Origin: a virus
Strand: one strand, 5' to 3'
Length of the DNA stretch: 27,817 nucleotides
Virus record (IMG/VR): IMGVR_UViG_3300022222_000016
Coordinates: 1 to 27,817 of that record
This document shows, piece after piece, positions 816 to 21,297 of the stretch. How positions within the stretch are numbered: the first letter of the stretch is position 1; each line of letters begins with the position of its first letter. A program made the position numbers and the translations under genes. The notes under the pieces are model-generated. The model made no database searches, was not told the DNA's origin, and was given only the letters and a program-made list of their open reading frames with translations.

Positions 816-1229
816 TTAGTGGTTGTCTAAAGTCTTTGGCTCGCCATCGCTGAAGGCGGCGTTCGCCCGACAAATGAAGCGCACCCGCGTTCGCAACTCC
901 CGTAGCACTCGCCCGGTCAGGCTATACCACGCATCGTTGTAGTCCTGATCCCCGTGATTGTGGCTCCACTCCCACCATTCATCGCTGTCGATGTCCGGCT
1001 CATTCGAGCATTCGATCTGCACTTCGGTCGCTACCCAGGAGCCGTCGTCTTCCTGCTGCCATTCGCTCGTCGAGAAGGACAGTTTGCCGCCACAATACGG
1101 GCAAGGTTTTACACCCCGGAACACATGGCCAGTCTCCACCACGCGAATTGCCGAACAAGGCGCTGATGCCAATCCCTGCCCGGTGAGAGCCGGTGAGAAA
1201 GCAACGTCGCTGGCGGGCAGGGCTGGCAT
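816..1229 (-). CDS. zinc-ribbon hypothetical protein whose N-terminus runs through an attC-like site
   Basis: The conserved-looking part begins at KPCPYCGGKLSF, a CxxC zinc-ribbon half like those of Lar-type restriction-alleviation and related small phage proteins, followed by an acidic, Trp-rich stretch (DEWWEWSHNHGDQDYNDAWY). Only one clear CxxC is present; a later ECSN Cys could be a third ligand. The ATG at 1229 lies just after the TAG stop (1234-1232) of the upstream gene, so I use it. The first ~35 residues are encoded by the palindromic attC-like element 1148-1246 and look non-conserved. A GTG at 1124, just past the element, is a plausible true start. The frame also stays open to 1286. 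Function unknown. Confidence 0.5.
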   Translation of the reverse strand: MPALPASDVAFSPALTGQGLASAPCSAIRVVETGHVFRGVKPCPYCGGKLSFSTSEWQQEDDGSWVATEVQIECSNEPDIDSDEWWEWSHNHGDQDYNDAWYSLTGRVLRELRTRVRFICRANAAFSDGEPKTLDNH

Positions 1230-1246
1230 AGCTAGGCGTTCGGCAA
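1148..1246. other. attC-like recombination site (site A)
   Basis: An imperfect palindrome of 99 bp. Outer stem TTGCCGAAC (1148-1156) pairs perfectly with GTTCGGCAA (1238-1246). Next come unpaired 5-nt spacers AAGGC (1157-1161) and TAGGC (1233-1237). The inner stem starts GCT/AGC (1162-1164 with 1230-1232), has an extrahelical G at 1165, then ATGCC/GGCAT, and continues after a small bulge with CCCTGCCCG (1174-1182) paired to CGGGCAGGG (1214-1222). A 31-nt terminal loop remains. This R-spacer-L arrangement with an extra base after 3 bp is the known architecture of integron attC sites. It overlaps the stop of the 1232-1477 gene and the start of the 816-1229 gene. Confidence 0.65.
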
Positions 1247-1477
1247 AACGGACAAGGTTAACCCTGCCGCTGTGGATAAATCCCAATCCGCGACGATGCC
1301 TTGTAGCACTGACAACACAGCTTCTGGCAGGTCGCCGGGGTGCTCAATAGTCAAGTCGCCTTCGAGGTGCGTTAAGGTGATGGAATTTTCATCGGTGGCG
1401 ACAAACGTAAAACGAAATGCCGAACGAGCCGATGGAGAGGAACCGCTAGAAGCGGCGGAGTTTGGTGTGGTTTTCAT
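1232..1477 (-). CDS. small hypothetical protein, putative cassette gene between two attC-like sites
   Basis: 81 residues. The N-terminal ~20 (low complexity, Ser/Ala/Pro-rich) are encoded inside the attC-like site 1419-1521. The part outside the sites runs from about FRFTFVATDENSITLTHLEG to GLTLSVLPNA and looks like a compact domain of beta strands followed by a helix. The C-terminal LPNA is encoded by the R box of the next site (1148-1246). The same [LMS]-[AP]-N-[ADV] C-terminus recurs in other genes that end at such boxes. Start ATG 1477 lies 17 bases after the upstream stop. No known family recognised. A start nearer the core, after the R box at 1419, is possible. Confidence 0.5.
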   Translation of the reverse strand: MKTTPNSAASSGSSPSARSAFRFTFVATDENSITLTHLEGDLTIEHPGDLPEAVLSVLQGIVADWDLSTAAGLTLSVLPNA

Positions 1478-1521
1478 AGATTTTCTTTCGCTTCTATCGG
1501 TCCCTCATCTCATCGTTCGGC
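1419..1521. other. attC-like recombination site (site B)
   Basis: A 103-bp palindrome. GCCGAAC (1419-1425) pairs with GTTCGGC (1515-1521). Spacers are GAGCC (1426-1430) and TCATC (1510-1514). The inner stem pairs 1431-1454 with 1489-1509: GATG, AG, GG, ACCG, one mismatch, then TAGAAGCG. Extrahelical G1435, A1438 and A1441 all lie on the same arm. It covers the 3' end of the 1494-2177 gene and the 5' end of the 1232-1477 gene. Distance between equivalent GTT boxes of sites A and B is 277 bp, a plausible single cassette. Confidence 0.65.
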
Positions 1522-2201
1522 AAAACCCGGCGCAGTGCCGTCGCAGCGTCAGAGTGCTTCATTGAGTTGCCGTCGATGTCGTAGTTTGTGTCGAGGTGCA
1601 TTATCGCGTCAGCGATGGCCGATTCCAGCGCTTCGACCCGCAAAGAGTAGTATGCCGCTTCCTCCGCCCGGCTTTGTCGCTCCACTTTTTCGTTCGTCGA
1701 CATTCGATGCCACACCATGCAGGCCGGGCACGCCTCTGGTTCGGCGGGGTTACCGCCGCAAGAACAAGACATGTTGACCGCTTCGCTCAGATTCCGTTTC
1801 ATATTCTCGCGCTCTATCGTTGCGACGAGGTCTCTCTCTGTTGCGTCCAACTTGAGAGCGGCTTCAATCTCGACGATGGATTTCCGCAGTCGCAGGGTGT
1901 CGCCTGCATCCATTTCGTTCCATGTGATTCCGTTTCGATTTCTGATCGTGCGTTTCCACGTCTCCAGTTGTCGGCGCACTTTCGATTCGCACGTCTTGTG
2001 TCGATCCAGCCATTCCCGGTATCGGCGCACGTATCCGATCCCTTCGTCGTCCACAGCCCAGCGCCCCGTCGCCTGCGCGTCCGCGATTTCAATTATGGAG
2101 CATTCTTGGCTCGTGACGATGGCTCCACCCTCGGCCACGAGTTGTTCGATCAGTTCTGCGGGTTGTTTGGTTTTCATAGTTGTCTCATTTCGCCTCTATC
2201 G
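1468..2201 (-). repeat. duplicated leader around two start codons (1468-1499 and 2168-2201)
   Basis: Read on the minus strand, both copies contain CGATAGA[A/G]GCGAAA, a short variable stretch, and CTATGAAAACCA. The distal copy encodes the end of the 2185-2577 gene and the start of the 1494-2177 gene. The proximal copy encodes the end of the 1494-2177 gene and the start of the 1232-1477 gene. The two proteins therefore both begin MKT. The copies are about 700 bp apart. This points to duplication of a gene-junction sequence during assembly of this block. Confidence 0.55.
1494..2177 (-). CDS. hypothetical coiled-coil protein with a Cys cluster
   Basis: 227 residues. The N-terminal half is Arg/Glu-rich and probably helical. 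Around residues 135-155 there is a Cys motif, CSCGGNPAEPEACPACMVWH (CxC...CxxC then His), likely a zinc site. The region after it (SRAEEAAYYSLRVEALESAIADAI) is a probable coiled coil. The C-terminus LPNDEMRDR is encoded by the R box and inner stem of attC-like site B. Stop of the preceding gene (2185) is 7 bases from this start. No family recognised. It lies in the early arm downstream of replication genes, so a DNA-related accessory role is possible but unproven. Confidence 0.6.
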   Translation of the reverse strand: MKTKQPAELIEQLVAEGGAIVTSQECSIIEIADAQATGRWAVDDEGIGYVRRYREWLDRHKTCESKVRRQLETWKRTIRNRNGITWNEMDAGDTLRLRKSIVEIEAALKLDATERDLVATIERENMKRNLSEAVNMSCSCGGNPAEPEACPACMVWHRMSTNEKVERQSRAEEAAYYSLRVEALESAIADAIMHLDTNYDIDGNSMKHSDAATALRRVLPNDEMRDR

Positions 2202-2577
2202 ATTTCATCGTTGGTCTCTTCCACCGTTCGATTCGAGCGAGTATCTTCTCGGCAGCTTTCTCGCAGCTATCCCGCTCACTTTCCTTGGAGACCGCCCAGC
2301 CATTGAAGAATCCCACCTCTCCTTGGATTATATTTGCGATCATTCGACATTTGCGCCGTCGCTGATGCCCGCGGTTCGGCGAATCCAATGGCCGGATTTC
2401 GCATTCCGTTGGTCGCTCCGTGTCGAAGTGCTTCCCGCAACCTCCACGCTCGGACCGGCAGACGTGGCCTAGATATTCCGTGCGTCCATCATCCGAGAAT
2501 AGGCGAGTCCATGTTACTACGTTCGTCTTCCCGCAGAAGGGGCAAGCGACCATCGGCTTCGGATCCTCGCCAGTCAT
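2185..2577 (-). CDS. zinc-ribbon protein, Ogr/Delta-like in part
   Basis: 130 residues. The N-terminal ~50 contain ACPFCGKTNVVTWTRLFSDD and then HVCRSERGGCGKHFDT, a CxxC...CxxxxxxxC pattern with a terminal aromatic that resembles the Ogr/Delta family of phage late-gene activators (one zinc bound by four Cys). The C-terminal half (about 70-130) is basic and helical (RRRKCRMIANIIQGEVGFFNG...) and does not look like that family. Its ATG overlaps the stop of the 2574-2858 gene by ATGA. It could be a transcription activator or just a generic zinc ribbon. Confidence 0.55.
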   Translation of the reverse strand: MTGEDPKPMVACPFCGKTNVVTWTRLFSDDGRTEYLGHVCRSERGGCGKHFDTERPTECEIRPLDSPNRGHQRRRKCRMIANIIQGEVGFFNGWAVSKESERDSCEKAAEKILARIERWKRPTMKSIEAK

Positions 2578-3052: not shown

Positions 3053-4359
3053 TTTGGTTGTTCCTTGGTTGAGAGATCATCGAACCGGACGTGTTGACCG
3101 TTCCATGCGAGGGTGATGACATCGCCGGACGGGCCGTTTGTGTTTTTAGCGATTAGAAGTTTTCGGGTATTGACCTCGCAATCCTCTGTTGGGAGGATTT
3201 TGAGGGCGAGTTTCGCGTCGAAGAAGATTTGTCGGGAATCTCGAACCTTACCGTTCTCGTTCAGTTGGGATAGGACGATGACCGGGCAACCGATTTCCTT
3301 GGACATGGCTTTTGCGGCCATTGAGGTTTTGGCGACCTCTCGTTCCCGGTTCTGTTCGTTATTTGCTTTCTCAGGGGAAACCAGTTGGAGATAGTCCAGA
3401 ACGATCAGGCCGACGTGTTTTTTTGCATTGGCTTCCCGGGCGATGGACCGCATTTGAGTTGGGGTCATATCGGAATCATCGCGCACGATAATATCGAGCG
3501 CTGCGATGCGATGAAGGGCGGCTCCTGCCCTGTCGATCATGTGGGCTGGCCATTCCGGCATGCGAAGGCTAGTCAGGTTGACACCACCGATATTTGAGAC
3601 CAGCCGATCAATCACCATTTGCTGCGTCATTTCCAGGGTGAATACCAGAATTCGCTCACCTTTGAGAGCGAGGCGACCGGCAATTTGCAGTGCGAGGGCG
3701 GTTTTCCCTCCACCGGATTCCCCGGCAATGCAGATCATGTCTCCGGGCACCATGCCGCCGATGATGCGATCCAAAGAGCCCAGCCCGGTTGACAAACCCG
3801 GTTCCTTCGTCCCGAGACACACGGCTTCATAATGATCCCGGGCCGCGTTGATTGCTTGTTTCCATGTCATTTCAGGTTCGGCAATGGTGTTCGAGGAACG
3901 GATCAGCGAATGCAAGGCCAGCTCGACCTGTTCCTGAACATCTTCCATGGGCATGGATGAATCATGTGCCTTTGACACCAAATCGGTTGCCGTCGTGATG
4001 ATTCGGCGCAACTGCTGCTTATCAGTGACCAGTTTCAGGTAGAACTTGGCATTGGCGGCGGTCGGGAGGAGCTGGGTGAGGCGAGAGACGGCTATCGCCC
4101 CCCCTACGGCATCCAGATCCCCGGACTGATGCAGGAATGAAGTCAGTGTGACGGCATCAATGGGCATGTCAGCCTCCTGCATGGACGCCATGGCCCCGTA
4201 AATCGTCCGGTTGGCCGGGATATAGAACAGGTCATCACCCGGCACGGAGGCGATCAAAGGGATTATCTTTTCTGGATCCACGGTTGCGCACCCGATCAAT
4301 GCCTCTTCGGCGGTGCCATCAAACGGAAGCCAGCGGTCAGGAGTGTCGAATGCGGTCAT
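3049..4359 (-). CDS. dnaB: replicative DNA helicase, DnaB family
   Basis: 436 residues, slightly shorter than bacterial DnaB. The N-terminal helical domain (about 15-150) has the family pattern EEALIGCATVDPEKI...FYIPANRTIYGAM...MPIDAVTLTSFL. The RecA-like ATPase domain follows a linker. Walker A is GESGGGKTA at about 213-221, the catalytic Glu lies in FTLEM (about 243), Walker B is LIVLDYLQL at about 318-326, and sensor-type VIVLSQLNE follows. The C-terminus carries AKNTNGPSGDVITLAWNGQHVRF, including the usual Lys/Arg-rich finger region. It unwinds DNA at the phage fork as a hexamer. The upstream gene (4365) is a likely initiator or loader. No primase was found in this window, so host DnaG may be recruited. 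Confidence 0.96.
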   Translation of the reverse strand: MTAFDTPDRWLPFDGTAEEALIGCATVDPEKIIPLIASVPGDDLFYIPANRTIYGAMASMQEADMPIDAVTLTSFLHQSGDLDAVGGAIAVSRLTQLLPTAANAKFYLKLVTDKQQLRRIITTATDLVSKAHDSSMPMEDVQEQVELALHSLIRSSNTIAEPEMTWKQAINAARDHYEAVCLGTKEPGLSTGLGSLDRIIGGMVPGDMICIAGESGGGKTALALQIAGRLALKGERILVFTLEMTQQMVIDRLVSNIGGVNLTSLRMPEWPAHMIDRAGAALHRIAALDIIVRDDSDMTPTQMRSIAREANAKKHVGLIVLDYLQLVSPEKANNEQNREREVAKTSMAAKAMSKEIGCPVIVLSQLNENGKVRDSRQIFFDAKLALKILPTEDCEVNTRKLLIAKNTNGPSGDVITLAWNGQHVRFDDLSTKEQPK

Positions 4360-4364
4360 TGGGG

Positions 4365-5246
4365 TCAGAGCTTGGCTGCGATTGCTGATTTCATTGCGTC
4401 GTTCGGTTTTGGGACTGCATTTGCGGCGAGTTCGACCTTGGCCTTGTTAATTTCAGATTCAAAGTTGTTAAGGAGAGTTGAAAGATTGCCTCGAATATAG
4501 GAAGTCTCGCCTCGACTCCTTTTCTCCCACCCATCGGCGTAAAATCGTTCGAGATCGGCAATTTCCTGTTTTGAGAACTCGGGCAGGTTTTGGAACGCCC
4601 GAATGTCGGTAGATTTCCATGCGGTTGTCGGTCGCTGTTTAACCATGGCGGCAATCCGAATTGCGAGAGGATGAACTGGAACCCCGATTTTCTCAGAACC
4701 ACGGACAGGAGCGGAGCGACAAACCGGGTGTGTGGGGGGTGTATTTGTATTTAAAGATGAAGATAAAGACAAAGACAAAGAGTTGGCATTTGGTTGGTAG
4801 GGTGGTTGAAGGGTGGTTGAGGAATGGTTGGAAGGGTGGTTCAAGGGTGGTTCAAGGGTGGTTGAACCACCCTTGAAATCCGCTGGATTTATTGATTCCC
4901 TCTGTCGAACAGCCTTTTGCTCGGATGATTTCTTGCCACCGGCGGAGCTTTTCCGCCTCCATTCCGATTGTTTTTCCCTCTCCTTGTCCAGTCGGTCGTG
5001 ATTTAATCGGTCCGGACGATCGCTGGACGGCTGGAACATTGTCAGCACGGCGGTTGCGAGGGCGATTGATGCGCCCTTTCCAATTAACCGCGCCACACTC
5101 TCGGGGTCGGACGGGATACTGCCGTGCTGCCAGCAAAATGCCAGCAACCGGATATACGCCCCCTCTTCCTCCAGGGTCAGCATTGCGACCCTTTGGCTAC
5201 CGAGCCATCCTGACGGGTAAAACTGGAACGCTGGTGATTGATTCAT
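4365..5246 (-). CDS. phage replication protein with DUF1376-type N-terminal domain
   Basis: 293 residues. Residues 1-90 (PAFQFYPSGWLGSQRVAMLT, then EEEGAYIRLLAFCWQHGSIP and LARLIGK-like text) match the DUF1376 family, common next to phage helicases and replication initiators. A charged linker (about 85-120) leads to a low-complexity part (about 125-165) encoded by the iteron cluster and a Ser-Leu run. The C-terminal region (about 200-293) is helical, with IADLERFYADGWEKRSRGETSYIRGNLSTLLNNFESE, resembling the primosomal tail of other phage initiators. It lies 5 bp upstream of dnaB. Probable role: origin recognition and/or helicase loading. The function is inferred from family context. Confidence 0.75.
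   Translation of the reverse strand: MNQSPAFQFYPSGWLGSQRVAMLTLEEEGAYIRLLAFCWQHGSIPSDPESVARLIGKGASIALATAVLTMFQPSSDRPDRLNHDRLDKEREKQSEWRRKSSAGGKKSSEQKAVRQRESINPADFKGGSTTLEPPLNHPSNHSSTTLQPPYQPNANSLSLSLSSSLNTNTPPTHPVCRSAPVRGSEKIGVPVHPLAIRIAAMVKQRPTTAWKSTDIRAFQNLPEFSKQEIADLERFYADGWEKRSRGETSYIRGNLSTLLNNFESEINKAKVELAANAVPKPNDAMKSAIAAKL
4800..4877. repeat. iteron cluster with 13-bp inverted repeat, candidate internal replication origin
   Basis: Six tandem units of 11-12 bp: GGGTGGTTGAA (4800-4810), GGGTGGTTGAG (4811-4821), a diverged GAATGGTTGGAA (4822-4833), GGGTGGTTCAA twice (4834-4844, 4845-4855) and GGGTGGTTGAA (4856-4866). The last units run into a perfect inverted repeat: TTCAAGGGTGGTT (4851-4863) and AACCACCCTTGAA (4865-4877) about a single centre base. 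To the left (about 4745-4790) lies a purine, A-rich stretch with repeated AAAGAY. All of this lies inside the replication-protein gene, like the origin iterons inside lambda gene O. Confidence 0.6.
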
Positions 5247-5252
5247 CTCAAT

Positions 5253-6884: not shown

Positions 6885-7044
6885 ACAAGTCCGTCAAATC
6901 TTTAGGGCGTTCAAGGTGGAGATTATCAATCGGATAATCGTCACCGGTGGATGCGATCACGTTGTCGCGGAAATTGATTGGGACAATCTATATCTCAAAT
7001 TCCACGACGCGACTTTCCAACCCGAACAACAACCAAATCCATGA
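6817..7044 (+). CDS. small hypothetical protein
   Basis: 75 residues with alternating beta and helix pattern: LTVQIEFTTDEAEQVRQIFRAF, then EIINRIIVTGGCDHVVAEID and WDNLYLKFHDATFQPEQQ. The stop overlaps the start of the recombination-associated gene at 7041 (ATGA), showing translational coupling. GTG 6853 is an alternative start that trims the polar first 12 residues and the overlap with the upstream membrane protein. No family recognised. Confidence 0.6.
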   Translation: MRENSNKDGNLTVQIEFTTDEAEQVRQIFRAFKVEIINRIIVTGGCDHVVAEIDWDNLYLKFHDATFQPEQQPNP

Positions 7045-8150
7045 GTACCGAACTACAAGAAAAATCCTCGCCGTTTTCGCGAACGGCATCATCATCACAA
7101 GTCGAAATAGAATCCCAACGAGCAGTGGCGGAGGTGCAATCCGCCATGATTCTCGCCCGTCGATTCCCGCGTGATCACGTCGCTGCGCTCGACCGGATTC
7201 TCAATGCCTGCACCCGCCCATCATTGGCTGAGGGCGCGCTTTACACCTACAGCCGGGGAGGAACTGACATCAGCGGGCCATCAATTCGGCTCGCTGAGAC
7301 GATTGCCCAGAATTGGGGGAACATTCAGTTCGGCGTGCGCGAGTTGGAACAACGCGAAGGCGAGAGTGTCGTCGAGGCGTTTGCGTGGGATTTGGAAACC
7401 AACACACGGCAAGTAAAGGTCTTTCAGGTTCGCCACGAAAGGCACACCGATCAAGGCGTCAAAATGCTGACTAAACCCCGAGACATTTATGAACTGGTCG
7501 CCAACCATGGAGCCCGCCGTCTCCGTGCGTGTATTCTAGGGGTGGTTCCCGGCGACATCGTTGAAGAAGCGGTTAAACAATGCGAGGTGACTCTTCAAAG
7601 CAGCGCCGAGTCAAATCCCGAGAAAGTGAAGGCCCTGATCGCAGCGTTCGGCGCCATGAGAATCACTTCTACCCAGATCGAGAAGCGCATCCAGCGCCGG
7701 ATTGACTCCATCCAACCAGCGCAAATCGTTCAACTCCGAAAGATTTACGCCAGCATGCGCGACGGAATGAGCAAGCCGGAGGACTGGTTTGAATATGAAC
7801 CCGAGTTTGAAACCGCAAGCCCGACAACCACCGCAACCATCGATACCCCGACTTCGTCCCGCCGCCGTGGCAGACCACCGAAAACGGTTGATGTTCCCAT
7901 TGATGACATCGCTCCCGTCCCCGTCGAGACCGCTCCAGTCGAATCCTTAGCCTCCCGAATCGACAAGCTATCCGCCGATGGAAAAGTCACATCGGGCGAC
8001 GTTCTGGCCTATCTCCAGACAGTCGGCAAAGCGCATGGCGCATGGAACACCCTTGACCTGTCCAATGATGATGCCCGCTATGTGTTAGACAACTGGCCGC
8101 ACGTCCTTGAAAAGACCAGCGCCTACCTCGAAGGGGAGGCATTGCCATGA
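7041..8150 (+). CDS. phage recombination-associated protein, candidate single-strand annealing protein
   Basis: 369 residues from ATG 7041. The conserved-looking core (about 30-250) includes RRFPRDHVAALDRILNACTR, GTDISGPSIRLAETIAQNWG, DLETNTRQVKVFQVRHERHT, DIYELVANHGARRLRACILG and QIEKRIQRRIDSIQPAQIVQL. This protein type is widespread in phages beside exonuclease and SSB genes, as here. The C-terminal third is low complexity with an AT-hook-like RRRGRPPK (about 273-280), then an acidic/Pro linker and a short helical end. Annealing activity is inferred from the SSB-like and nuclease genes that follow with coupled starts; no Rad52/RecT signature is provable by eye. The longer frame from 6978 is rejected in favour of the ATGA start. 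Confidence 0.6.
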   Translation: MSTELQEKSSPFSRTASSSQVEIESQRAVAEVQSAMILARRFPRDHVAALDRILNACTRPSLAEGALYTYSRGGTDISGPSIRLAETIAQNWGNIQFGVRELEQREGESVVEAFAWDLETNTRQVKVFQVRHERHTDQGVKMLTKPRDIYELVANHGARRLRACILGVVPGDIVEEAVKQCEVTLQSSAESNPEKVKALIAAFGAMRITSTQIEKRIQRRIDSIQPAQIVQLRKIYASMRDGMSKPEDWFEYEPEFETASPTTTATIDTPTSSRRRGRPPKTVDVPIDDIAPVPVETAPVESLASRIDKLSADGKVTSGDVLAYLQTVGKAHGAWNTLDLSNDDARYVLDNWPHVLEKTSAYLEGEALP

Positions 8151-8449
8151 TGTCCATAAGCATCAACGTAACCAAAATTGACAAGGCATTGATCAAGCCG
8201 GGAAAAAAACCTGATGCCGTTACAGGAAAAGTCGGGCAATACATTGATCTGGTTTGCTTTGATAAGCCTGACAATTACGGCAACGACGGATTTGTTGTTC
8301 AGGGAGTTTCCAAGGAACAGCGTGCGGCAGGCGTCAAGGGCCCGATCATAGGCAACTGGAAGAATATTGGGGCTATCCGACAGCCATCGCAGCCAGCACG
8401 ACAGCAACCGTCCAACAGCCAATCGCAGGAAGATGATATTCCTTTCTGA
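8147..8449 (+). CDS. small protein with SSB-type acidic tail
   Basis: 100 residues. The N-terminal ~65 are beta-rich (ISINVTKIDKALIKPGKKPD, YIDLVCFDKPDNYGNDGFVV), consistent with a small OB-like fold. A Gln/Pro/Ser linker follows (RQPSQPARQQPSNSQSQ), and the protein ends in EDDIPF, the hallmark C-terminal tip by which bacterial and phage SSBs recruit replication and repair partners. At 100 residues it is shorter than bacterial SSB. Its ATG overlaps the previous stop, and the nuclease starts 4 bases after its stop. Probably coats single strands during phage recombination or replication. Confidence 0.7.
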   Translation: MMSISINVTKIDKALIKPGKKPDAVTGKVGQYIDLVCFDKPDNYGNDGFVVQGVSKEQRAAGVKGPIIGNWKNIGAIRQPSQPARQQPSNSQSQEDDIPF

Positions 8450-8452
8450 CAA

Positions 8453-9592
8453 ATGAGCGACGATCCACGAATGGGACTTCCAAGCGCTTCATCCATGGAA
8501 GCATTGGAACTCTGCCCCGGCAGGCATCTGGCGTGCCAAGGCATCGAGGACACCAGAACCAAGGACACCACGTTTGGCGACCGTGTTCATTTCGTTCTCT
8601 GCGAGATGGCTAATGGAAACGCCGCGCATCGAGACATTGATGAATCAGTAAACTCCGCCGCTATTGATCTCTGGAAAAAAGGCAATGATCTTGTAGAATG
8701 GTGGAAGCAAGCGAATGAAATCACTGATTGCTCTGAACTAATCGAACGACGATTGCTGTTGTCGAGCCGGGACGGCGTGCCATTGATGACCGGACAGGGA
8801 GACAGGATTGTAATAAGCCGGGATCACGCGCTTATTATTGACTACAAAAGTCTTCCGGGCGACGTATCAGACTCGAAAGACAATGGGCAACTCCGCAGCC
8901 TAGTCGCACTGGTCGGGCATTCGTACGACGCTGTGTTTACAATCACCGGAGCCATCATTCAGCGTATGACAGGCAAACCGGAGCCCGTTGTCTATCGTGG
9001 TGAAGAAATCGACGCAGCGATTGATTGGTCGGAGCGAGTGGCGATTGCCGCCATGGACCCCAACGCCCCGCGCAACCCTGGCGAGAAACAATGCAAATGG
9101 TGCCGGTTCAAGCCTAATTGCCCGGAAGCGAACGCCAAGGCCGTCGCCGTAGTCGAAAAGCTCGGCCCGGTGGATCTCGTCACCCACAAGATCGCATCAC
9201 TCGCACCCGACCGCTTGGCACAACTATTTGATCAGGTCACGTTTGCTCAAACCATCCTGAAAACAGCCCGTGAAGAAATCGAGAAGCGAGTGGACGCAGA
9301 ATCCATCCCCGGTCTTGAACGAGGGGAAGGGTCAAAAACTAGCGAGGTTTCTGACATGGGGGCGTTGTTCTCCAGGTTGCGCGATAAATACGGCATAGAC
9401 GACGCTCGGTTCGTGCGCGGGGCGACAATCAGCAAAAAGGAGATCAAGGCCATGATCAAAGAGTGGAATCAAGAAATGTCCGGTGCAGCGCTCGACAAGG
9501 CTTGTGCGACATTACTAGTTGGAATTGTCACAGAGAAACTGAAAAGGGGTAGCGTTGGAAGGGTGAACGATGAGGTATCCCACGATGACTGA
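8453..9592 (+). CDS. PD-(D/E)XK nuclease, Cas4/AddB-like (DUF2800-type phage exonuclease)
   Basis: 379 residues. N-terminal GLPSASSMEALELCPGRHLA gives the Ser-rich turn and a single Cys (C21). The nuclease core shows GQGDRIVISRDHALIIDYKS (about 114-133), with Asp117 and the catalytic D130-x-K132. A distal Cys trio CKWCRFKPNC (about 211-220), with C21, matches the four-Cys iron-sulfur arrangement of Cas4 and AddB nucleases. The C-terminal ~130 residues are helical. It probably resects double-stranded ends for the annealing protein two genes upstream. It overlaps the next gene by 8 bases. Confidence 0.8.
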   Translation: MSDDPRMGLPSASSMEALELCPGRHLACQGIEDTRTKDTTFGDRVHFVLCEMANGNAAHRDIDESVNSAAIDLWKKGNDLVEWWKQANEITDCSELIERRLLLSSRDGVPLMTGQGDRIVISRDHALIIDYKSLPGDVSDSKDNGQLRSLVALVGHSYDAVFTITGAIIQRMTGKPEPVVYRGEEIDAAIDWSERVAIAAMDPNAPRNPGEKQCKWCRFKPNCPEANAKAVAVVEKLGPVDLVTHKIASLAPDRLAQLFDQVTFAQTILKTAREEIEKRVDAESIPGLERGEGSKTSEVSDMGALFSRLRDKYGIDDARFVRGATISKKEIKAMIKEWNQEMSGAALDKACATLLVGIVTEKLKRGSVGRVNDEVSHDD

Positions 9593-10295
9593 CACCGCCA
9601 CGTCGATGCAATTCGCGCTCTCTAACGACGCCAGCCCGACACGGGGCGGGTCATCGTTGGGATCACCGTCTTGTTCACCGTTCTTGACCGTGACGGGCGC
9701 GGATGAGCGGACGGACGTAGCGGCACTGGCAAAGCTGACCGCCGAAATCGGGCTGCTCTACACGGCGACGCCAGAAGGTCGGAACCGCTACCCGCGCTGG
9801 GAGTGGATTCGGGAAACCTCGATCGAACTCCGAAAGGCGTCCCTGCATGTCTGCGGACGCGGAGCGCGTGCGTTGCTGATGGACGGGAAACTGTCAGTCA
9901 GCGGCTTCCAGCGGATCCAAGTCAACGGGGGGATTCTTGCACTGGAGGTGGAACACCTCTGCACGATGTATCCACGCCATACGATCATCACTCAGCACCA
10001 CGTCAAAAACGCGCACCTGCTCGCCGTGCGGCCAATCAATCACGCAATCCTGCTCGACACCAGCGGTGGTCGGGGAATCTCTCCAAGCGAATGGACGCAA
10101 CCAACGACCGAAAAGGCAGTCGGATTCGCGGGCGGTCTAGGCCCGGACAATCTCGCCGCTGAAATGCTGACGATCCGAGAAACCGCCCGCCCCGGATGGT
10201 GGGCTGACATGGAGGGAAAACTCCGCGTCGGTGACTGGTTCTCGCTCGAACTCGCGGGCGAGGTGGTCGCGCAATTCTCTTCGGCGAACGCCTAG
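9585..10295 (+). CDS. hypothetical protein with cassette-like N-terminus
   Basis: 236 residues from ATG 9585 (MTDTATSMQFALSNDASPTR). ATG 9570 is also in frame. The first ~35 residues are Ser/Thr/Pro-rich and lie over a degenerate attC-like palindrome (9620-9662). The remaining ~200 look like a normal globular domain (DVAALAKLTAEIGLLYTATP, WEWIRETSIELRKASLHVCG, FQRIQVNGGILALEVEHLC). A GTG at about 9690 could be the real start. The C-terminus SSANA comes from the R box of site C (10283). No family recognised. Confidence 0.6.
   Translation: MTDTATSMQFALSNDASPTRGGSSLGSPSCSPFLTVTGADERTDVAALAKLTAEIGLLYTATPEGRNRYPRWEWIRETSIELRKASLHVCGRGARALLMDGKLSVSGFQRIQVNGGILALEVEHLCTMYPRHTIITQHHVKNAHLLAVRPINHAILLDTSGGRGISPSEWTQPTTEKAVGFAGGLGPDNLAAEMLTIRETARPGWWADMEGKLRVGDWFSLELAGEVVAQFSSANA
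9620..9662. other. degenerate attC-like palindrome
   Basis: CTCTAAC (9620-9626), spacer GACGC, a short GC-rich inner stem, spacer TCATC, then GTTGGGA (9656-9662). Box and spacer lengths follow the other sites and the TCATC spacer is shared with site B. The outer boxes pair in only 4 of 7 positions, and at 43 bp it is shorter than normal attC sites. Possibly a remnant. Confidence 0.25.
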
Positions 10296-10369
10296 CTCAT
10301 GGACGCCGACCTATTAACTCCGCTGCAAGAAGGACGCCCGTCGGCGTTTCATGCAGCGTTTTGTTCGCC
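10283..10369. other. attC-like recombination site (site C)
   Basis: An 87-bp palindrome. GGCGAAC (10283-10289) pairs perfectly with GTTCGCC (10363-10369). Spacers are GCCTA (10290-10294) and GTTTT (10358-10362). Inner stem: GCT/AGC, extrahelical C at 10354, CATG/CATG, then ACGCCGAC (10303-10310) with GTCGGCGT (10340-10347) after a one-base irregularity. The spacer and first inner bases (GAACGCCTAGCT) are identical to those of site A, which lies about 9 kb away on the opposite arm. It covers the stop of the 9585-10295 gene and the first ~24 codons of the Dam-type gene. Confidence 0.7.
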
Positions 10370-10868
10370 TCGCGGGGGGATGGGCGGTCATCATTCCGCC
10401 AGGGCTGACAAGGATGAATGGCTGACACCACCTGAACTTCTCCGCACCCTTGGAGAGTTCGACTTGGATCCGTGCTCGCCAATGGAACGCCCGTGGCCGA
10501 CTGCCGCGCAACATCTCACATGGAAAGACAACGGACTGCTTGCCGCGTGGCAGGGTCGCGTCTTCTGTAATCCTCCGTATGGTCGCGAGGCTGGCCGATG
10601 GCTCGCGAGGTGTGCGGAACATGGCAACGCCACCGCGCTGATCTTCGCCCGCACCGAAACGGCCGACTGGCAAGCGCATGTGTGGGCAAAGGCGGATGCG
10701 ATTTTCTTCCTCTTCGGGCGTCTGCACTTCCACCATGTGGACGGACGCCGCGCCGCAGCCAACTCTGGCGCACCTTCGGCACTGATCTCCTACAACGCCG
10801 AGAACACACGCTTCTTGGAAAACTCCATGCTACCCGGGCGCTTAGTCCGTCTGGCGAACGACAAATGA
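10299..10868 (+). CDS. phage DNA N6-adenine methyltransferase (Dam-type)
   Basis: 189 residues in the longest frame. The family core starts at DEWLTPPELLRTLGEFDLDP, the typical opening of phage DNA N-6-adenine methyltransferases. It continues with WQGRVFCNPPYGREAGRW, where NPPY (91-94) is the catalytic motif IV of adenine-N6 methyltransferases, and NATALIFARTETADWQAHVW. It methylates adenine in DNA, probably protecting the phage genome from host restriction. Residues 1-24 are encoded by attC-like site C. An ATG at 10380 (MGGHHSARADKDEW), 10 bases past the site, fits the family N-terminus better. The C-terminus LANDK derives from another R-box sequence (GGCGAAC, 10853-10859). Confidence 0.88.
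   Translation: MDADLLTPLQEGRPSAFHAAFCSPRGGMGGHHSARADKDEWLTPPELLRTLGEFDLDPCSPMERPWPTAAQHLTWKDNGLLAAWQGRVFCNPPYGREAGRWLARCAEHGNATALIFARTETADWQAHVWAKADAIFFLFGRLHFHHVDGRRAAANSGAPSALISYNAENTRFLENSMLPGRLVRLANDK
10853..10859. other. isolated attC-like R box at the end of the Dam-type gene
   Basis: GGCGAAC, identical to the R box of site C, encodes the LAN of the Dam-type C-terminus. No complementary arm was found in the next 200 bp. Further single boxes of this kind lie at 11379-11385 (AGCGAAC, end of the DUF4326 gene) and 22111-22117 (GGCGAAC, near the end of the 21782-22168 gene). Confidence 0.35.
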
Positions 10869-16120: not shown

Positions 16121-16180
16121 TTCGGCGCCCGTGAAGATTTTCATGGACACGAAACCGGTTTTGTGAGAAATCTGTGTCAG

Positions 16181-16357
16181 ATGAACCGAAACGCGCAGGC
16201 CCTGGCCAGACTCAAAAAGGGAAAGAGACTCAAGCTGACCGCCGATGAGCGGAAGCGCCGGTCTGTCCGCCTGGAGGGCGCACGGCTCAAGCGCCAGCAA
16301 ATGCGCGAGATCGAGGCGTCGAGGATCGTGGCGGAGATCATCGGAGACGACGAGTAG
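16181..16357 (+). CDS. small basic hypothetical protein
   Basis: 58 residues from ATG 16181 (MNRNAQALARLKKGKRLKLT). GTG 16163 would add six. It is strongly basic and helical (ADERKRRSVRLEGARLKRQQ, MREIEASRIVAEIIGDDE). It lies 60 bp after the portal and 4 bp before the glycosyltransferase gene. Could be a DNA-binding or internal virion protein; no motif is recognisable. The 60-bp gap before it contains no clear terminator. Confidence 0.5.
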   Translation: MNRNAQALARLKKGKRLKLTADERKRRSVRLEGARLKRQQMREIEASRIVAEIIGDDE

Positions 16358-16361
16358 AGCC

Positions 16362-17444
16362 ATGGTGATCCTGTCTTCGCCCGTTACCGCTACGCACGAC
16401 GGCGTTTCGCTCGCCCCGTTCGCCCGGTACGTGGTGACGATCAGCCAAGGGGATGCCATTATCGACGCCCTGAGAAGCAACGACTTGAAGCCGGTCGAGG
16501 CCAGCAACTTCAATTCATACGAGCGCCGATATTCCGGCCATGATTTGAACGCCAAAACCCTGTGTATTTACCGGCACGCGGCGTTTGGAGATCAGTTGAT
16601 GACGACCGCTATTCCGGCTTATTTGAAAACGCGATGGCCGAAGGCGCACGTCATCATGTCGTGCGGTATTGGTGTGTCCGAAGTCTGGGAAAACAACCCT
16701 GACGTGGATTTCTGTTCGGGAGCGGTCCCGTTTGAAACGGCTAAATTATCAGATTACCACCTGTTTTTTGAGTCCATGCTGGAATGCAACGGACTAGAAG
16801 AACAGGGGAACGCCTACGACGATATGTTCGCGTTCGGCGGGATGCTGGATGTTCCCAATGAGTTTAAGCGTCCGCACATTTATATCGGAACGACGGACAT
16901 TAAACGGGATTCGGAATGGCGCAACTACATCGGTAAGGAGCCGTATATCGTTTACCAATGGAACGCCGGGAACCCCGTGCGCCAGTATCCGCCCGACATG
17001 GCCGCGAAGTTGCTCGAACAATGGGTGGACACGAAAATCGTGGTCGTTGGCAAAACAAAGGACAAGATACCAAGTCTCTCGCACGTCGTTGACCTGACGA
17101 ACCGGACCAATCATTTCCGGCAGTTGATCCCGATCATCCGGCAGTCGAAAGCGGTTGTCTGCCCCGATTCCAGCATCAGCCACTTGTGCGCGGCGTTCCC
17201 CGGGGAAGTCAAGGCGATCAGTCTTTGGGGACCGTTCTCGCCGGATGACAGGATTCTGTATTACGAAAATCACACGGCATTGCAGGGGAGATGTCCGCAC
17301 GCGCCATGTCGGACACATTCATTCAAGCCGCCAATTGACAAATGCCGGGATGCCGGAGCGGAATACGTTCGGGCCGACAACTGCGCGGCGTTGGCGACAA
17401 TCACGACCCATGAGATCGTTTCGGCGATAAAGAATATTTTATGA
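16362..17444 (+). CDS. glycosyltransferase family 9-like (heptosyltransferase fold)
   Basis: 360 residues from ATG 16362. The frame opens earlier, but that overlaps the basic small gene. It shows the GT9/ADP-heptosyltransferase plan: CIYRHAAFGDQLMTTAIPAY followed by LKTRWPKAHVIM (R..GD....P...LK...P.A.I), a linker, then YIVYQWNAGNPVRQYPPDMA and the donor-binding VCPDSSISHLCAAFPGEVKA, ISLWGPFSPDDR. A Cys-rich C-terminal part (GRCPHAPCRTHSF, DKCRDAG) is unusual. It likely transfers a sugar to a surface glycan or virion component. Start of a five-gene transfer module; its stop overlaps the next ATG. Confidence 0.8.
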   Translation: MVILSSPVTATHDGVSLAPFARYVVTISQGDAIIDALRSNDLKPVEASNFNSYERRYSGHDLNAKTLCIYRHAAFGDQLMTTAIPAYLKTRWPKAHVIMSCGIGVSEVWENNPDVDFCSGAVPFETAKLSDYHLFFESMLECNGLEEQGNAYDDMFAFGGMLDVPNEFKRPHIYIGTTDIKRDSEWRNYIGKEPYIVYQWNAGNPVRQYPPDMAAKLLEQWVDTKIVVVGKTKDKIPSLSHVVDLTNRTNHFRQLIPIIRQSKAVVCPDSSISHLCAAFPGEVKAISLWGPFSPDDRILYYENHTALQGRCPHAPCRTHSFKPPIDKCRDAGAEYVRADNCAALATITTHEIVSAIKNIL

Positions 17445-18067
17445 GCAATCGATTCACAGAAGACTATTACCTCTGCGGACGTACAACGGGGTTGTCAAAT
17501 TACGAAAATTATCGATGGCTGCCCGAGTTGACGATTCCCATGGCAATCAATCTTGCGAGGCGATTGGGCATGACGTTTGGAGACAGCGCCCTCGATGTGG
17601 GTTGCGCCCGTGGCTACGCGGTCAAGGCGCTAAAGCAGATTGGGATTCAGGCATGGGGATATGACATTTCCGAGTGGGCCATTGCGAACTGCGACCCGGA
17701 CGTGAAGCGATGGGTTTCAAATAAAATGTGGAATTGTAATTATGATTTCGTATATAGCCTGAACACACTCGAACACGTGCAGGAGGATGAGTTGCCCGAG
17801 TTGCTTCGTAAAATGTGCGCGATGGCGCGGGCCAAGGTTTTCATTCTGGTCCCGCTCGCCTACGCGAATGGCAAGTTCATCCACCCGAAAGAGGAGTTGG
17901 ACGAAACGCATATTTTGCGATGGACGTTTGACGTGTGGATGCGCGCACTCAGCGGCGTAAGCACAGACTTCACGGTGTCGGGATCATATTTCTATCCCGG
18001 CCTGAAACCGGCAGCGGAAGAGTCCCCGACCGGCTACGGATTTTTCATTATGGAAAGGTCAAACTAA
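17441..18067 (+). CDS. class I SAM-dependent methyltransferase
   Basis: 208 residues. Motif I is ALDVGCARGYAVKALKQIGI (about 50-69), with the acidic motif II in AWGYDISEWAIANC. YDFVYSLNTLEHVQEDELPE is the motif IV region (N-T-L-E-H-V), as in small-molecule and glycan methyltransferases. Not a DNA methyltransferase, since no (D/N)PPY is present. ATGA overlap with the GT9 gene and adjacency to GT2 suggest that it methylates a sugar or nucleotide sugar. Confidence 0.82.
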   Translation: MSNRFTEDYYLCGRTTGLSNYENYRWLPELTIPMAINLARRLGMTFGDSALDVGCARGYAVKALKQIGIQAWGYDISEWAIANCDPDVKRWVSNKMWNCNYDFVYSLNTLEHVQEDELPELLRKMCAMARAKVFILVPLAYANGKFIHPKEELDETHILRWTFDVWMRALSGVSTDFTVSGSYFYPGLKPAAEESPTGYGFFIMERSN

Positions 18068-18068
18068 A

Positions 18069-18818
18069 ATGGCATCAATCGGATTAACATTCAACATATA
18101 CAACGACGCACTGGCGCTGCCCGGCCTGCTTGAGAACGCGGCCCCGTTTTTCGACGCTATTACGGCAGTCCATGCGGGACCGAACGGCAAGCTGTCGGAC
18201 GACGGCACCATTGAAATCCTCGAACGATGGGGCGTGCGTATCTGCATGTCGTCCATCAACGAAGGCTTCGGGGCGGTCAGAACGCAATGTATTCGCGAAA
18301 GCATGACGGATTGGGTGATGATCATGGACGCCGACGAACGGTTTTTCCCACTAATGCCAGCGTTGACATGTGAAGGGACTGAAAAGTATCCCGATATCGA
18401 CGCTCCGAATTTGACCGTTATCAATGAAGGCAAGATTTACAACCAGGGCGCATTGCTTCGGAAGGTGATCGAAACCCCGGGAGCGTTCGCGATTCGTACA
18501 TCCAGGCGTCATTGGTTCGACTACTCCATGAAACGACCCACCCAGAACTGGCAGACCGTCGAGCCAGACTGGCAGCTTCGGATCGTCAAGAACGACCCCC
18601 GCGTTCGGTACACGTCAAACGTGAAAATGCATGAACGAATTGTGTTCGGTGACACGGGCAAGGAACCGTCTCATGTTGCGTTCAATCAGGAGCTTACAAA
18701 CGCGCTTTACCACGATCATTTTCATTGCTTCTGGAAGCCACAGGAACCGGCGCAACGGGAACATGACGTTCGTATTTACGACGCGCTTTGCAACAACACA
18801 GACATTCCCAGCGAATGA
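18069..18818 (+). CDS. glycosyltransferase family 2-like
   Basis: 249 residues. The N-terminus IGLTFNIYNDALALPGLLEN is the GT-A nucleotide-binding strand and helix. GTIEILERWGVRICMSSINE and then CIRESMTDWVMIMDADERFF place the metal-binding DAD motif at about 87-89. The C-terminal part (PTQNWQTVEPDWQLRIVKND) and KMHERIVF resemble the acceptor half of GT2 enzymes. Lies one base after the methyltransferase stop. Probably cooperates with GT9 in decorating a surface glycan or capsid/tail protein. Confidence 0.8.
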   Translation: MASIGLTFNIYNDALALPGLLENAAPFFDAITAVHAGPNGKLSDDGTIEILERWGVRICMSSINEGFGAVRTQCIRESMTDWVMIMDADERFFPLMPALTCEGTEKYPDIDAPNLTVINEGKIYNQGALLRKVIETPGAFAIRTSRRHWFDYSMKRPTQNWQTVEPDWQLRIVKNDPRVRYTSNVKMHERIVFGDTGKEPSHVAFNQELTNALYHDHFHCFWKPQEPAQREHDVRIYDALCNNTDIPSE

Positions 18819-19426
18819 AACTTCTCAACATCGGATGCGGAGCAACCCGGCCCGGAAATCCATGGACGAACGTGGATACGCTCAAGAAGTTCTTTTCGAC
18901 TGACGAGCGGTTTGGTGGTGAGCTTGAAGAAATCAACAAGGAACCCAACTACGTTGAGCATGACATCACGGTGTTGCCGTGGCCGTTCCCAGAAAATGAG
19001 TTTGATGCGGTTCTGGCGAGCCATGTAATTGAGCATTTCGATTGCCGGGTTGGATCGGCGATTATGTCGGAAGCGAGGCGGGTTCTCAAGCCGGACGGGC
19101 TTCTTGTGGTGAGCGTTCCAGATGTCACTTATTTTCGGTCGGTCTATCGTGATGACCGCAACGAGAACTGGCATCAGCTGTTTGGGATCACCGATCCCAA
19201 GAACCCCATTCCGACATGGTTCGAGGCCGCGTTGTGGTTCAATGAGCACCACGCCATTCTTGCGGATGATTCGGTGTGGGCATACTTCATTCGGGCTGGG
19301 TTCAAAGTGGAATCCATTCGCCAATGGGAACCGGACGCGACAACCGGGGAAAACCCATTGCGCGACATAATCAAGGGCGTTTTGAACAGATCAAAATTCT
19401 CGCTGGTAATGATCGGGAGGAAATAA
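18815..19426 (+). CDS. class I SAM-dependent methyltransferase
   Basis: 203 residues from ATG 18815, overlapping the GT2 stop (ATGA). The protein begins directly with motif I: MKLLNIGCGATRPG. Next come NEFDAVLASHVIEHFDCRVG and ARRVLKPDGLLVVSVPDVTY (motifs IV-VI), typical of methyltransferase type 11/UbiE-like enzymes. The compact N-terminus, with no extra domain, indicates that it relies on partner proteins for substrate binding or acts on small molecules. Last methyltransferase of the sugar module, coupled by TAATG to the radical SAM gene. Confidence 0.82.
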   Translation: MKLLNIGCGATRPGNPWTNVDTLKKFFSTDERFGGELEEINKEPNYVEHDITVLPWPFPENEFDAVLASHVIEHFDCRVGSAIMSEARRVLKPDGLLVVSVPDVTYFRSVYRDDRNENWHQLFGITDPKNPIPTWFEAALWFNEHHAILADDSVWAYFIRAGFKVESIRQWEPDATTGENPLRDIIKGVLNRSKFSLVMIGRK

Positions 19427-20538
19427 TGGAGCTCAAACACTCATTCACAAGCACGGGCCACAAGTTTTTCCATCATGAAGAGGCGATGGCAAAGCTGAGG
19501 AATGGTCAGGGGATGCCCATTGTCACGCATCTGATGCCGACTGATGTGTGCCAGCACACGTGCGCATTTTGTTCGGTTGTCACCCGAGACGGGAAGGCGC
19601 TTTCGCTTTCACAGATTGCCGGATACCTCGATCAATTGGTTCCGATTGGGTTGAAGTCCGTTATTATCAGCGGTGGCGGAAACCCGATTTTGTTTCGGTG
19701 CCGAGACACCGGGAAAGGATTCAACGACCTGGCATGGATGATTCACTCCAGGGGTCTTGAAATCGGCTTGATCACGAACGGGATGCCGTTGAAAACGTAT
19801 GCCAGCGGACGAAATAGTTGGCGCACGGTCGCCCCGTCAACGCTGGACTTGTTCAAGTGGATTCGCATTTCCATGAGCGGACTGGATCACAAAGAGCGCG
19901 AAGTCTACGTTCCAGACATTGACCGCGACCTTACGACTCTCGGATTCAGTTATGTTTACCATGACATTTACGAGGAACCTGCCGAGACGAACCATGGCAA
20001 GGTGGCGACCCCGGAAGAGTGGGGCGGGAAGGGGCGGGTCCAGATGGGCAAGGATCGGTTGCCATGGATTCAATCCATGATCACGGGATACGTGAACGCA
20101 TGTTCCCCCCGCTACGTGCGTCTCCTGCCGAACTGTAACCAACCGGATTTAATCGCCAGCCGATGCGAGGAACTTCAAGCGGTGGCAAATGCCATTGACC
20201 CTGACGTGGTGTTCGTGCAATACAAGCCGCCACAAGCGCCGAACAAATGTTTTCTAGGATACGTTCACCCGGTCTTAAATAGCGATGGATACGTTTACCC
20301 GTGCGACAGTTGCGTTCTCAACGCAGCGGCTGGACACAAGTTTGCAGAGCCGTGGAGGGTGTGCCGATGGGATGAGATTGGCGAACTGTATAAGCGGCCG
20401 GTGGAATCCCTTGTGGATCCCAAGAAACTTTGCCCCGGGTGCGTGTTCACCCAAAGCAACTTGATCCTCGAACAAGTAGTAAATGGAATGAAAACACAAC
20501 CCCCGGCACAAGTGCCAATCCACCCAAACTTTGTCTGA
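19426..20538 (+). CDS. radical SAM enzyme with SPASM-like C-terminal Cys cluster
   Basis: 370 residues from ATG 19426 with an upstream GGAGG Shine-Dalgarno. The cluster-binding motif C42-xxx-C46-xx-C49 (VCQHTCAFCSV) is followed by the SAM-binding ISGGGNP (GGE-like) and GLEIGLITNGMPL. C-terminal Cys residues (CFLGYVHP, GYVYPCDSCVLN, KKLCPGCVF) indicate a SPASM/Twitch auxiliary-cluster domain, as in enzymes that modify peptides or sugars. Substrate unknown. The neighbours suggest a glycan precursor or a virion protein. Confidence 0.82.
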   Translation: MELKHSFTSTGHKFFHHEEAMAKLRNGQGMPIVTHLMPTDVCQHTCAFCSVVTRDGKALSLSQIAGYLDQLVPIGLKSVIISGGGNPILFRCRDTGKGFNDLAWMIHSRGLEIGLITNGMPLKTYASGRNSWRTVAPSTLDLFKWIRISMSGLDHKEREVYVPDIDRDLTTLGFSYVYHDIYEEPAETNHGKVATPEEWGGKGRVQMGKDRLPWIQSMITGYVNACSPRYVRLLPNCNQPDLIASRCEELQAVANAIDPDVVFVQYKPPQAPNKCFLGYVHPVLNSDGYVYPCDSCVLNAAAGHKFAEPWRVCRWDEIGELYKRPVESLVDPKKLCPGCVFTQSNLILEQVVNGMKTQPPAQVPIHPNFV

Positions 20539-20540
20539 TT

Positions 20541-20846: not shown

Positions 20847-20866
20847 ATGCGCAGAAAGAAAACATA

Positions 20867-21040
20867 ATGTCAATCGCACTCGTTTACTGGATATTGATGC
20901 TGCTTTGGCTGGTATTCGGAATTTGGTCGGGGTGGCCGATGACCGGCGCAAACGTTCGCCCATTGGGCGGCACATTGCTTCTGTTCATCCTGCTTGTGTT
21001 GCTGGGGTGGAGGGCGTTCGGACCACCGATTCATTCGTGA
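20867..21040 (+). CDS. small two-span membrane protein
   Basis: 57 residues. MSIALVYWILMLLWLVFGIW forms a first hydrophobic span, the linker SGWPMTGANVRPLG follows, and GTLLLFILLVLLGWRAFG forms a second. Two short spans with a small loop resemble small phage holins or unassigned phage membrane proteins, but no endolysin lies beside it. A weak AGAAAG-type ribosome site precedes the ATG. Not a shadow: the frame has strong membrane composition. Confidence 0.5.
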   Translation: MSIALVYWILMLLWLVFGIWSGWPMTGANVRPLGGTLLLFILLVLLGWRAFGPPIHS

Positions 21041-21042
21041 AT

Positions 21043-21214
21043 CGCAAAAAGCACCTATGACGCCTGACGCCGCCATTGCGTTTATGGTTGGTATGATGCT
21101 GGGAGCGTGGTTAGGAGTTGCGCTGGCTACGACTGATATGTGGTGGCCGATATGGTACAAACAGCGTTTATCCTCAGCGAACGCAAAGAGCACCTATGAC
21201 GCCTGACACCGCCA
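21043..21214 (+). repeat. 33-bp near-identical direct repeat spanning two start codons
   Basis: 21043-21075 and 21182-21214 match at 31 of 33 positions. Each includes GCACCTATGACGCCTGAC and encodes the same first residues MTPD. The second copy is the R''-side spacer and inner arm of attC-like site D. The first is therefore a partial copy of that site, missing its second half. The 139-bp interval holds one small gene. Confidence 0.7.
21057..21206 (+). CDS. small single-span membrane protein between two repeat copies
   Basis: 49 residues, MTPDAAIAFMVGMMLGAWLG then VALATTDMWWPIWYKQRLSSANAKSTYDA. A hydrophobic segment (about 5-25) with several Met/Gly residues looks like one membrane span. The first four residues come from the repeat, and the last ~9 (SSANAKSTYDA) from the next repeat and R box. 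It fits a tiny cassette gene. Low confidence in function; moderate in translation. Confidence 0.4.
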   Translation: MTPDAAIAFMVGMMLGAWLGVALATTDMWWPIWYKQRLSSANAKSTYDA

Positions 21215-21297
21215 CTCCGCTGCAAGAGGAGGCCCATAACGTCGCCCCCGCTCCGAGTCTGGACGGGGCGGCATTAGGTGGCTCGCTTTGTTGGGCC
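21176..21297. other. attC-like recombination site (site D)
   Basis: Boxes AGCGAAC (21176-21182) and GTTGGGC (21290-21296; fits GTTRRRY exactly) pair at only 4 of 7. Spacers are GCAAA (21183-21187) and GCTTT (21285-21289). The inner stem is strong: GAGC/GCTC, extrahelical G21280, ACCTA/TAGGT, one more extra base, TG/CA, a mismatch, then CGCCT with GGGCG (last pair a wobble). A further local hairpin (CGCCCC with GGGGCG) lies in the long loop. It covers the stop of the 21057 gene and the first ~34 codons of the Mom/GNAT-like gene, whose internal ATG 21301 follows 4 bases after the GTT box. Confidence 0.65.

Follow-up and report, generated by a model that had tools for sequence, protein, structure and literature searches.

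How are accessory genes exchanged in a phage that carries integron-like hairpins beside its variable genes and has no detectable integrase gene? The question is raised by IMG/VR virus record IMGVR_UViG_3300022222_000016, a linear record of 27,817 bp that was analyzed over its full length (the window) and that represents a tailed phage by gene content. The initial annotation of this sequence described four palindromes resembling integron attC sites and proposed that the phage acquires accessory genes as integron cassettes, a proposal that is supported here by a covariance model, by shuffled-sequence controls and by the breakpoints between sister phages. Together with two further hairpins, the palindromes are very probably functional attC sites of a Verrucomicrobiota type, grouped in two phage loci, at which an integron integrase (IntI) supplied in trans would exchange single-gene cassettes. 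These cassettes are mirrored, with the gene reversed relative to attC. The reversal is the most unusual feature of the system and was missing from the first reading.

Architecture of the attC sites

The four palindromes were recovered at their annotated positions with 7-base outer boxes, unpaired spacers of exactly 5 nt on both sides, and the expected extrahelical base (EHB) in the inner stem, which follows the first 3 bp at all four. A second EHB, not recorded before, lies 4-5 bp further inward on the same arm, and two further attC sites (E and F) were identified. More specifically, site A (1150-1244, + strand) has its R'' box GCCGAAC on the left and its R' box GTTCGGC, the recombination box, on the right (1238-1244). 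Site B (1419-1521, +) has R' GTTCGGC at 1515-1521 and three EHBs. The remaining sites lie on the - strand: site E (9562-9679, R' 9562-9568 at the 3' end of an exonuclease gene), site C (10283-10369, R' 10283-10289, with the start codon of a Dam-like gene within the hairpin), site D (21176-21296, R' 21176-21182) and site F (21747-21846, R' 21747-21753). Each of the six carries two or three EHBs on one arm only, the left arm in A and B and the right arm in C, D, E and F. Unpaired spacers of 5-6 nt, an L box and EHBs confined to the L'' arm are found at all six sites, and class 1 integron controls look alike. The identity of GAACGCCTAGCT between A and C, reported earlier, is real.

Each AAC...GTT pair received a score for attC architecture (boxes of 7 bases, spacers of 5-6 nt and a bulged stem), with 1000 dinucleotide-shuffled windows as the null. 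Sites A, B, C and E reached 21.6, 20.4, 19.9 and 20.9, above the shuffle maximum of 19.7; the comparison with shuffled sequence proposed by the annotation thus separates these four strongest sites from chance and leaves D (15.9) and F (16.4) inside the shuffle range, non-significant on that score alone. The low values of D and F arise because the two outer boxes of each mismatch, pairing at 4/7 and 5/7 positions, respectively, compared with 7/7 in A, B, C and E. This mismatch is expected after cassette insertion, which exchanges boxes: R'' of D (GCCCAAC) fits R' of F (GCCTAAC), and R'' of F (GGCGAAC) fits the next box, a gene-end GGCGAAC at 22111-22117 (+). When folded as DNA against dinucleotide shuffles (better strand), A and B are far better than expected (z -6.5 and -5.4), C moderately so (z -3.2), and D shows no excess (z +0.6/+0.8). 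A default inverted-repeat search recovers just B among the original four, because EHBs and spacers interrupt the arms. Beside site D, a 33-bp near-repeat (94%; 21043-21075 and 21182-21214) holds a second copy of its left arm with GAATCG instead of the core GAACG, and is probably a decayed attC.

A home-made covariance model was trained on 28 attC sites, all of them from chromosomal Verrucomicrobiota integrons and none from phages. In the unfiltered window its six best matches are the six sites (B 28.7, C 28.5, A 26.3, F 24.7, D 19.0 and E 18.5 bits), and the next match reaches 10.4 bits. The covariance-model search that the annotation had called for therefore places all six well above the background of the window. 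The model also assigns A and B to the plus and C, D, E and F to the minus strand, the same strands as predicted from the EHBs; site B, for instance, scores 28.7 bits on + and 7.0 on -. As controls, three class 1 integron sites scored 37.8, 30.7 and 15.0 bits, and the top match among 14 unrelated phage contigs was 14.6.

The boxes themselves differ from the general integron consensus GTTRRRY, which most of them fail: R' of A, B, C, D and E begins GTTC, and only that of F (GTTAGGC) fits. The annotation had treated GTTCGSY as an imperfect match. This reading does not hold, as such boxes are ordinary in Verrucomicrobiota integrons, whose chromosomal attC sites show GTTC, GTTG and GTTA boxes, and the notion that the GTTCGSY boxes are degenerate was ruled out on the same ground. 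The annotated GTTAGGC at 2613 is genuine as a gene-end box, though no hairpin was found with it. Further boxes occur at 861-867 (R' box GTTCGCC, +, at a gene end), 1692-1698 (R'-like GTTCGTC, +) and 10853-10859 (gene-end GGCGAAC, +, in frame).

In an integrated cassette, R'' is expected to match the R' half lying at the opposite end rather than the R' of its own hairpin. Over 21 phage pairs, 3.57 of the 4 variable positions agreed between R'' and the far-end R', compared with 2.48 between R'' and its own R' (permutation p<5e-5), and 19 bacterial control pairs gave 3.42 and 2.32. One viral contig (L048), with six sites and five consecutive methyltransferase genes, forms a perfect chain.

Gene-content junctions between sister phages

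Near-identical sister contigs, namely G1 (IMGVR 3300020186_000054), L029, L030, L031, L039 and L041, come from four metagenomes. They align to the window at ~99% and then switch abruptly to other genes. Six of the nine gene-content junctions fall on a CGTT/AACG core, at window positions 863, 1244, ~1691, 9569, 21183 and 21751. Accordingly, the annotation's expectation that genes differing between related phages should end on GTT/AAC boxes was borne out.

At 9569 (site E), a common left arm ending GGTGAACG is followed by three different right arms in the window, G1 and L030. Similarly, at 21183 (site D) a common arm ending CAGCGAACG leads into three right arms (window, L029/L030 and L031), and at 21751 (site F) three left arms (window, G1 and L031) meet one right arm at AACGTCGAAGTCACC. 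The box at 861-867 is a presence/absence site: G1 has 1074 additional bp between two copies of GGCGGCGTT, encoding a cytosine DNA methyltransferase by motifs. At site A, G1 homology stops within the GTTCGGC box (1244-1247), and near 1691, next to the R'-like box at 1692-1698, right-hand G1 homology begins at CGTTCG.

Four of the six predicted R' boxes are junctions and none of the R'' boxes is. The corresponding four predicted R' cuts lie <=4 nt from one of the nine junctions (P ~1e-9 under random placement), and at each of the four sites with a junction, the junction lies on the side indicated by the EHBs. At 4-10 bp, the common cores fall short of the length of an assembly overlap. Another cassette gene is placed differently in L030 than in L031, with 91% identity.

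Two side observations concern these variable loci. In G1 (25757-26896, reverse-complement coordinates), the open reading frame (ORF) of the cytosine methyltransferase runs beyond both cassette boundaries and takes its last residues from the flank, so that insertion alters the C-terminus of whichever gene is upstream. L030 carries an identical 53-bp direct repeat (2646-2698 and 4097-4149) around gene starts in its variable locus.

Polarity and content of the cassettes

Polarity was set by the EHBs, plus the covariance model and box chain where tested, and gene direction was compared with it. All six cassettes of the window are mirrored: attC precedes the gene and contains its start codon, and no ORF followed by its attC was found among them. 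By reading frame, the hairpin is translated as an N-terminal tail, the frame of the preceding gene stays open across the R' box, giving [A/P]-N-x, and the stop codon of that gene comes from the next attC.

At locus 1, two minus-strand genes without an assigned family illustrate this layout. The gene at 816-1286 has its start side in site A and passes the box at 861 in frame (...RANAAF...), and the gene at 1232-1477 starts within site B and ends ...LPNA* in site A. The plus-strand cassettes include a gene of no assigned family at 9570-10295, which begins in site E and ends ...SSANA* at site C, and a Dam-type DNA adenine methyltransferase gene at 10299-10868 (PF05869, 46.4 bits; phrog_111), which starts in site C and ends ...LANDK*. 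A DUF4326 gene at 11032-11391 (+; PF14216, 59.7 bits) ends ...LANV* at the box 11379-11385. A further gene without assigned family (21196-21792, +) has its first codon within site D and draws its N-terminal ~35 residues from the hairpin. Downstream lies a DNA methyltransferase gene (22325-22897, +; phrog_954, E 2e-65), an 84%-identical relative of which occupies the other cassette locus of G1 in opposite orientation.

By an automatic longest-ORF rule, mirrored and standard genes numbered 31:9 in phage contigs, 1:29 at IntI loci of other bacteria, 0:5 in plasmids and 5:39 in Verrucomicrobiota integrons. Fisher p was 6e-12 for phages against other bacteria plus plasmids (1:34) and 5e-10 against Verrucomicrobiota, with counts made non-independent by near-identical contigs. 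Several of the "standard" phage calls are antisense ORFs chosen over a recognizable methyltransferase (G1 27975, L047 1522). The direction is mirrored for the genes recognized by family, homology or motif: the window Dam gene, the methyltransferases of G1 and L031, five in L048, and those of L047, L049, L069 and L070.

With few exceptions, the recognized cassette products are DNA methyltransferases (Dam-like, N6_N4_Mtase and phrog_954 family), and several products match no known family. This payload is consistent with evasion of restriction, which may be its main role and which Qi et al. 2023 (PMC9892861) proposed for phage cassettes. Relatives of the methyltransferases in 11 Verrucomicrobiota genomes had a strong attC match at one locus only; the family is therefore not generally a chromosomal cassette.

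Comparison with known integrons

The closest likeness is with chromosomal integrons of Verrucomicrobiota (L182, L185, L165, L177). They use the same boxes (GCCGAAC, AGCGAAC, GGCGAAC), have AACAA/AACCA after R'', and show 5-6 nt spacers, an EHB after 3 bp with a second further in, and the same box chain; site A has GCCGAACAAGGCGCT in common with L182 sites. In contrast, genes in these integrons end at attC (39 standard, 5 mirrored), whereas the phage genes start in it, and the phage arrays are short, consist mostly of methyltransferases and, in the group of the window phage, lack a nearby intI. One chromosomal ten-site array (L177, 10899-19170) has half of its genes called mirrored, which reflects either gene-calling noise or an array of mixed polarity. 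Class 1 plasmid integrons (L075, L076; scanner 17.5-18.7) share the architecture, EHB pattern and box chain, but their attC follows the gene (5:0 standard) and their boxes read GTTA where those of the phage read GTTC.

Phage attC arrays, among them arrays lacking intI (CALINs), and methyltransferase cassettes within them were described by Qi et al. 2023 (PMC9892861), and IntI1 recombined 5/6 of the phage attC sites tested there. Phage attC arrays, methyltransferase cassettes and the use of phage attC by IntI1 are thus already known. Unlike the window, three published cases (Tetrasphaera phage TJE1, Shewanella phage M16-3 and Vibrio phage Va_90-11-286_p16) proved standard in polarity under the same scanner and model, and neither mirrored coding cassettes nor a comparison of near-identical phages appears in the sections of that paper examined. 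Within the open-licence literature, we found no report of mirrored cassettes with a translated attC, of cassette swaps between near-identical phages, or of Verrucomicrobiota-type phage integrons.

Virus Rctr41k (KX853513, L074) offers a parallel. This phage contig has an IntI-like gene annotated only as xerD and four chained attC-like sites at 8415-10101, and its box chain puts R'' on the right with all genes on +, that is, mirrored. Its arm sequences are different and it was not found by model R1. The Treponema denticola reverse integron (PMC7691350) also resembles some viral contigs (L047, L049, L070), in that intI and cassette genes run in the same direction. In Treponema, however, the reversed element is intI, with attC in its usual place after the gene (R'' and L'' downstream of ddl), whereas here the gene is reversed relative to attC. 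An equation of the two systems was ruled out on this difference.

Recombinase and host

The annotation had left open whether the phage's own or a host IntI would act, and this clause is half answered. No Phage_integrase (tyrosine recombinase) match was found in the records of the window, G1, L029-L031, L039 and L041, and the window, G001-G004, G010 and G011 gave no PF00589 match, so that none has the intI beside its array that marks a complete integron. An overlooked integrase gene is unlikely but possible, as G1 and L030 jointly cover both loci and the structural genes. IntI is, on the other hand, common in Verrucomicrobiota and also found in related viral contigs. Of 388 Verrucomicrobiota genomes, 101 carry IntI-like genes, and chromosomal arrays there use the same GTTC/GTTG boxes; four viral contigs with mirrored methyltransferase cassettes have intI beside the array: G008 (TIGR02249, 265.6 bits; cut-off 265), G006 (252.3), L069 and L070. 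The best solved relative of the G008 and G006 proteins is Vibrio IntI4 (2a3v). A search of bacterial genome contigs for IntI returned loci 31-51% identical to phage IntI, nearly all outside Verrucomicrobiota, which served mainly as polarity controls.

Taken with the sites, this suggests that the host belongs to the Verrucomicrobiota and that an IntI of Verrucomicrobiota type probably acts in trans, from a host chromosomal integron or a co-infecting companion phage. Such an IntI would act on folded single-stranded DNA and recombine it at G|TT, the core of the R' boxes; in this way cassettes of one gene each, often a DNA methyltransferase gene, would be inserted, removed or exchanged. With attC at its start, a gene would obtain from the hairpin its start codon, apparently its ribosome-binding site too, and ~25-35 translated residues as an N-terminal tail. 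At the other end of the gene, the reading frame would cross the next R' box ([A/P]-N-x) and stop at a codon supplied by the following attC.

A narrower version, tentative but to be taken seriously, holds that the system belongs to the phages themselves, with IntI from a subset of them (G006, G008, L069, L070 and a Haloferula prophage) serving, in trans, sister phages from which the gene was lost or in which it was never present, and the host integron uninvolved. Several viral contigs do have IntI beside mirrored cassettes, the IntI of L062 and L066-L070 form a phage-only clade, and the IntI of G006 (L063) groups with that of Haloferula luteola (Verrucomicrobiota; support 100), whose IntI gene adjoins ORFs that by sequence are Mu-like prophage head genes (L106, 9956-13943). 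At this Haloferula locus, no attC at threshold and no recognizable array nearby were found. The version is weakened by the lack of a tyrosine recombinase match in any contig of the window phage's group, and host integrons with the same boxes are common, which makes a helper phage unnecessary.

Other features of the phage genome

Genes in the window run on the minus strand left of ~6.4 kb and on the plus strand for the remainder. They encode a DnaB-type helicase and a primosomal protein, and weak matches indicate a major head protein and a tail assembly protein. Adjoining locus 2, a gene for a RecT-like single-strand-annealing protein (6978-8150, +; phrog_3657, E 1e-101; a distant mycophage match is annotated RecT-like) forms part of the fixed phage backbone. 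It is followed by a PD-(D/E)XK exonuclease gene (8453-9592, +; PF12705, PF10926, phrog_69), whose 3' end contains R' of site E.

The sole match in an Rfam scan of the window, a DUF3800-VII RNA at 357-445 (+; 66.8 bits, gathering score 36.2), lies left of cassette locus 1 and is unrelated to the attC sites. The primosomal (DUF1376) gene holds a perfect 16-bp inverted repeat with a 6-nt loop at 4840-4877 (TTCAAGGGTGGTTCAA), which is not an attC and is possibly a replication signal. Between cassette sites, a block at 16245-20538 encodes a glycosyltransferase of family 9, two methyltransferase-like proteins and an Fe-S-type protein; it is conserved in L029-L031 and has no counterpart in the G1 alignment, where the G1 contig ends fall in that locus.

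Discussion

The exchange of cassettes by IntI has to be weighed against more general routes of gene movement. Ordinary phage mosaicism, in which RecT-type annealing or illegitimate recombination joins genes at short gene-end linkers (GCGAACG) and the hairpins are terminators or regulatory elements, would find its machinery in the RecT-like protein and exonuclease encoded beside locus 2, and it would account for the three junctions off R' cores. We nevertheless regard it as very improbable. The common cores are short, the hairpins have junctions at R' but none at R'', homologous recombination has no use for a chain from R'' to far-end R' or for one-sided EHBs, and the sites are recovered by a model of chromosomal attC.

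It is still harder to attribute the mirrored polarity to a gene-calling artefact, with the true genes on the opposite strand. Longest-ORF calls are noisy, as the "standard" calls among phages show, but the recognized cassette genes all run mirrored, and bacteria scored by the same method come out 34:1 and 39:5 standard. Movement by another single-strand hairpin recombinase (IS200/IS605-type Y1 transposase or REP-associated RAYT) would fit the single-strand polarity and hairpins adjoining a fixed tetranucleotide, but is the least credible option, since a pair of 7-bp boxes, a 5-nt spacer on either side and a double EHB characterize attC rather than Y1 ends, and IntI rather than a Y1 transposase was found beside related arrays (no search aimed at Y1 transposases was made).

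Several observations weigh against exchange by an IntI in trans as the whole explanation. Three junctions lie off R' cores (window 10341, 11398/11399 and 22897), as do small rearrangements at 1860-2520, and other recombination therefore happens too. Nine of the 40 phage genes were called "standard" by the automatic rule, and a hand check covered some of them, not all. The capsid protein of the window phage has no relative in 376 Verrucomicrobiota genomes nor in the phage collection and lends no support to the proposed Verrucomicrobiota host. Every contig is a metagenome assembly, and exchange is read from the comparison of contigs, with no recombination event itself observed.

The natural use of phage attC sites had been an open question. 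The differences among near-identical phages described here coincide exactly with the cut sites, and cassette exchange can therefore be traced at base resolution. The mirrored and translated attC indicates that the layout of gene followed by attC is not demanded by the recombination chemistry. It also gives a handle on the origin of integron cassettes, which to our knowledge is still unexplained.

We consider it an evenly balanced prospect that the phages keep a mirror-image, fully coding cassette pool of their own, made up largely of interchangeable anti-restriction methyltransferases, reshuffled in nature with a host or companion-phage IntI and separated by polarity from the bacterial pool. 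If the methyltransferase payload is indeed anti-restriction, the loci would constitute a device for swapping counter-defence genes among phages, and polarity would be a simple sequence-level mark of it. As a whole, the mirrored genes point to a separate, virus-adapted pool of exchangeable genes.

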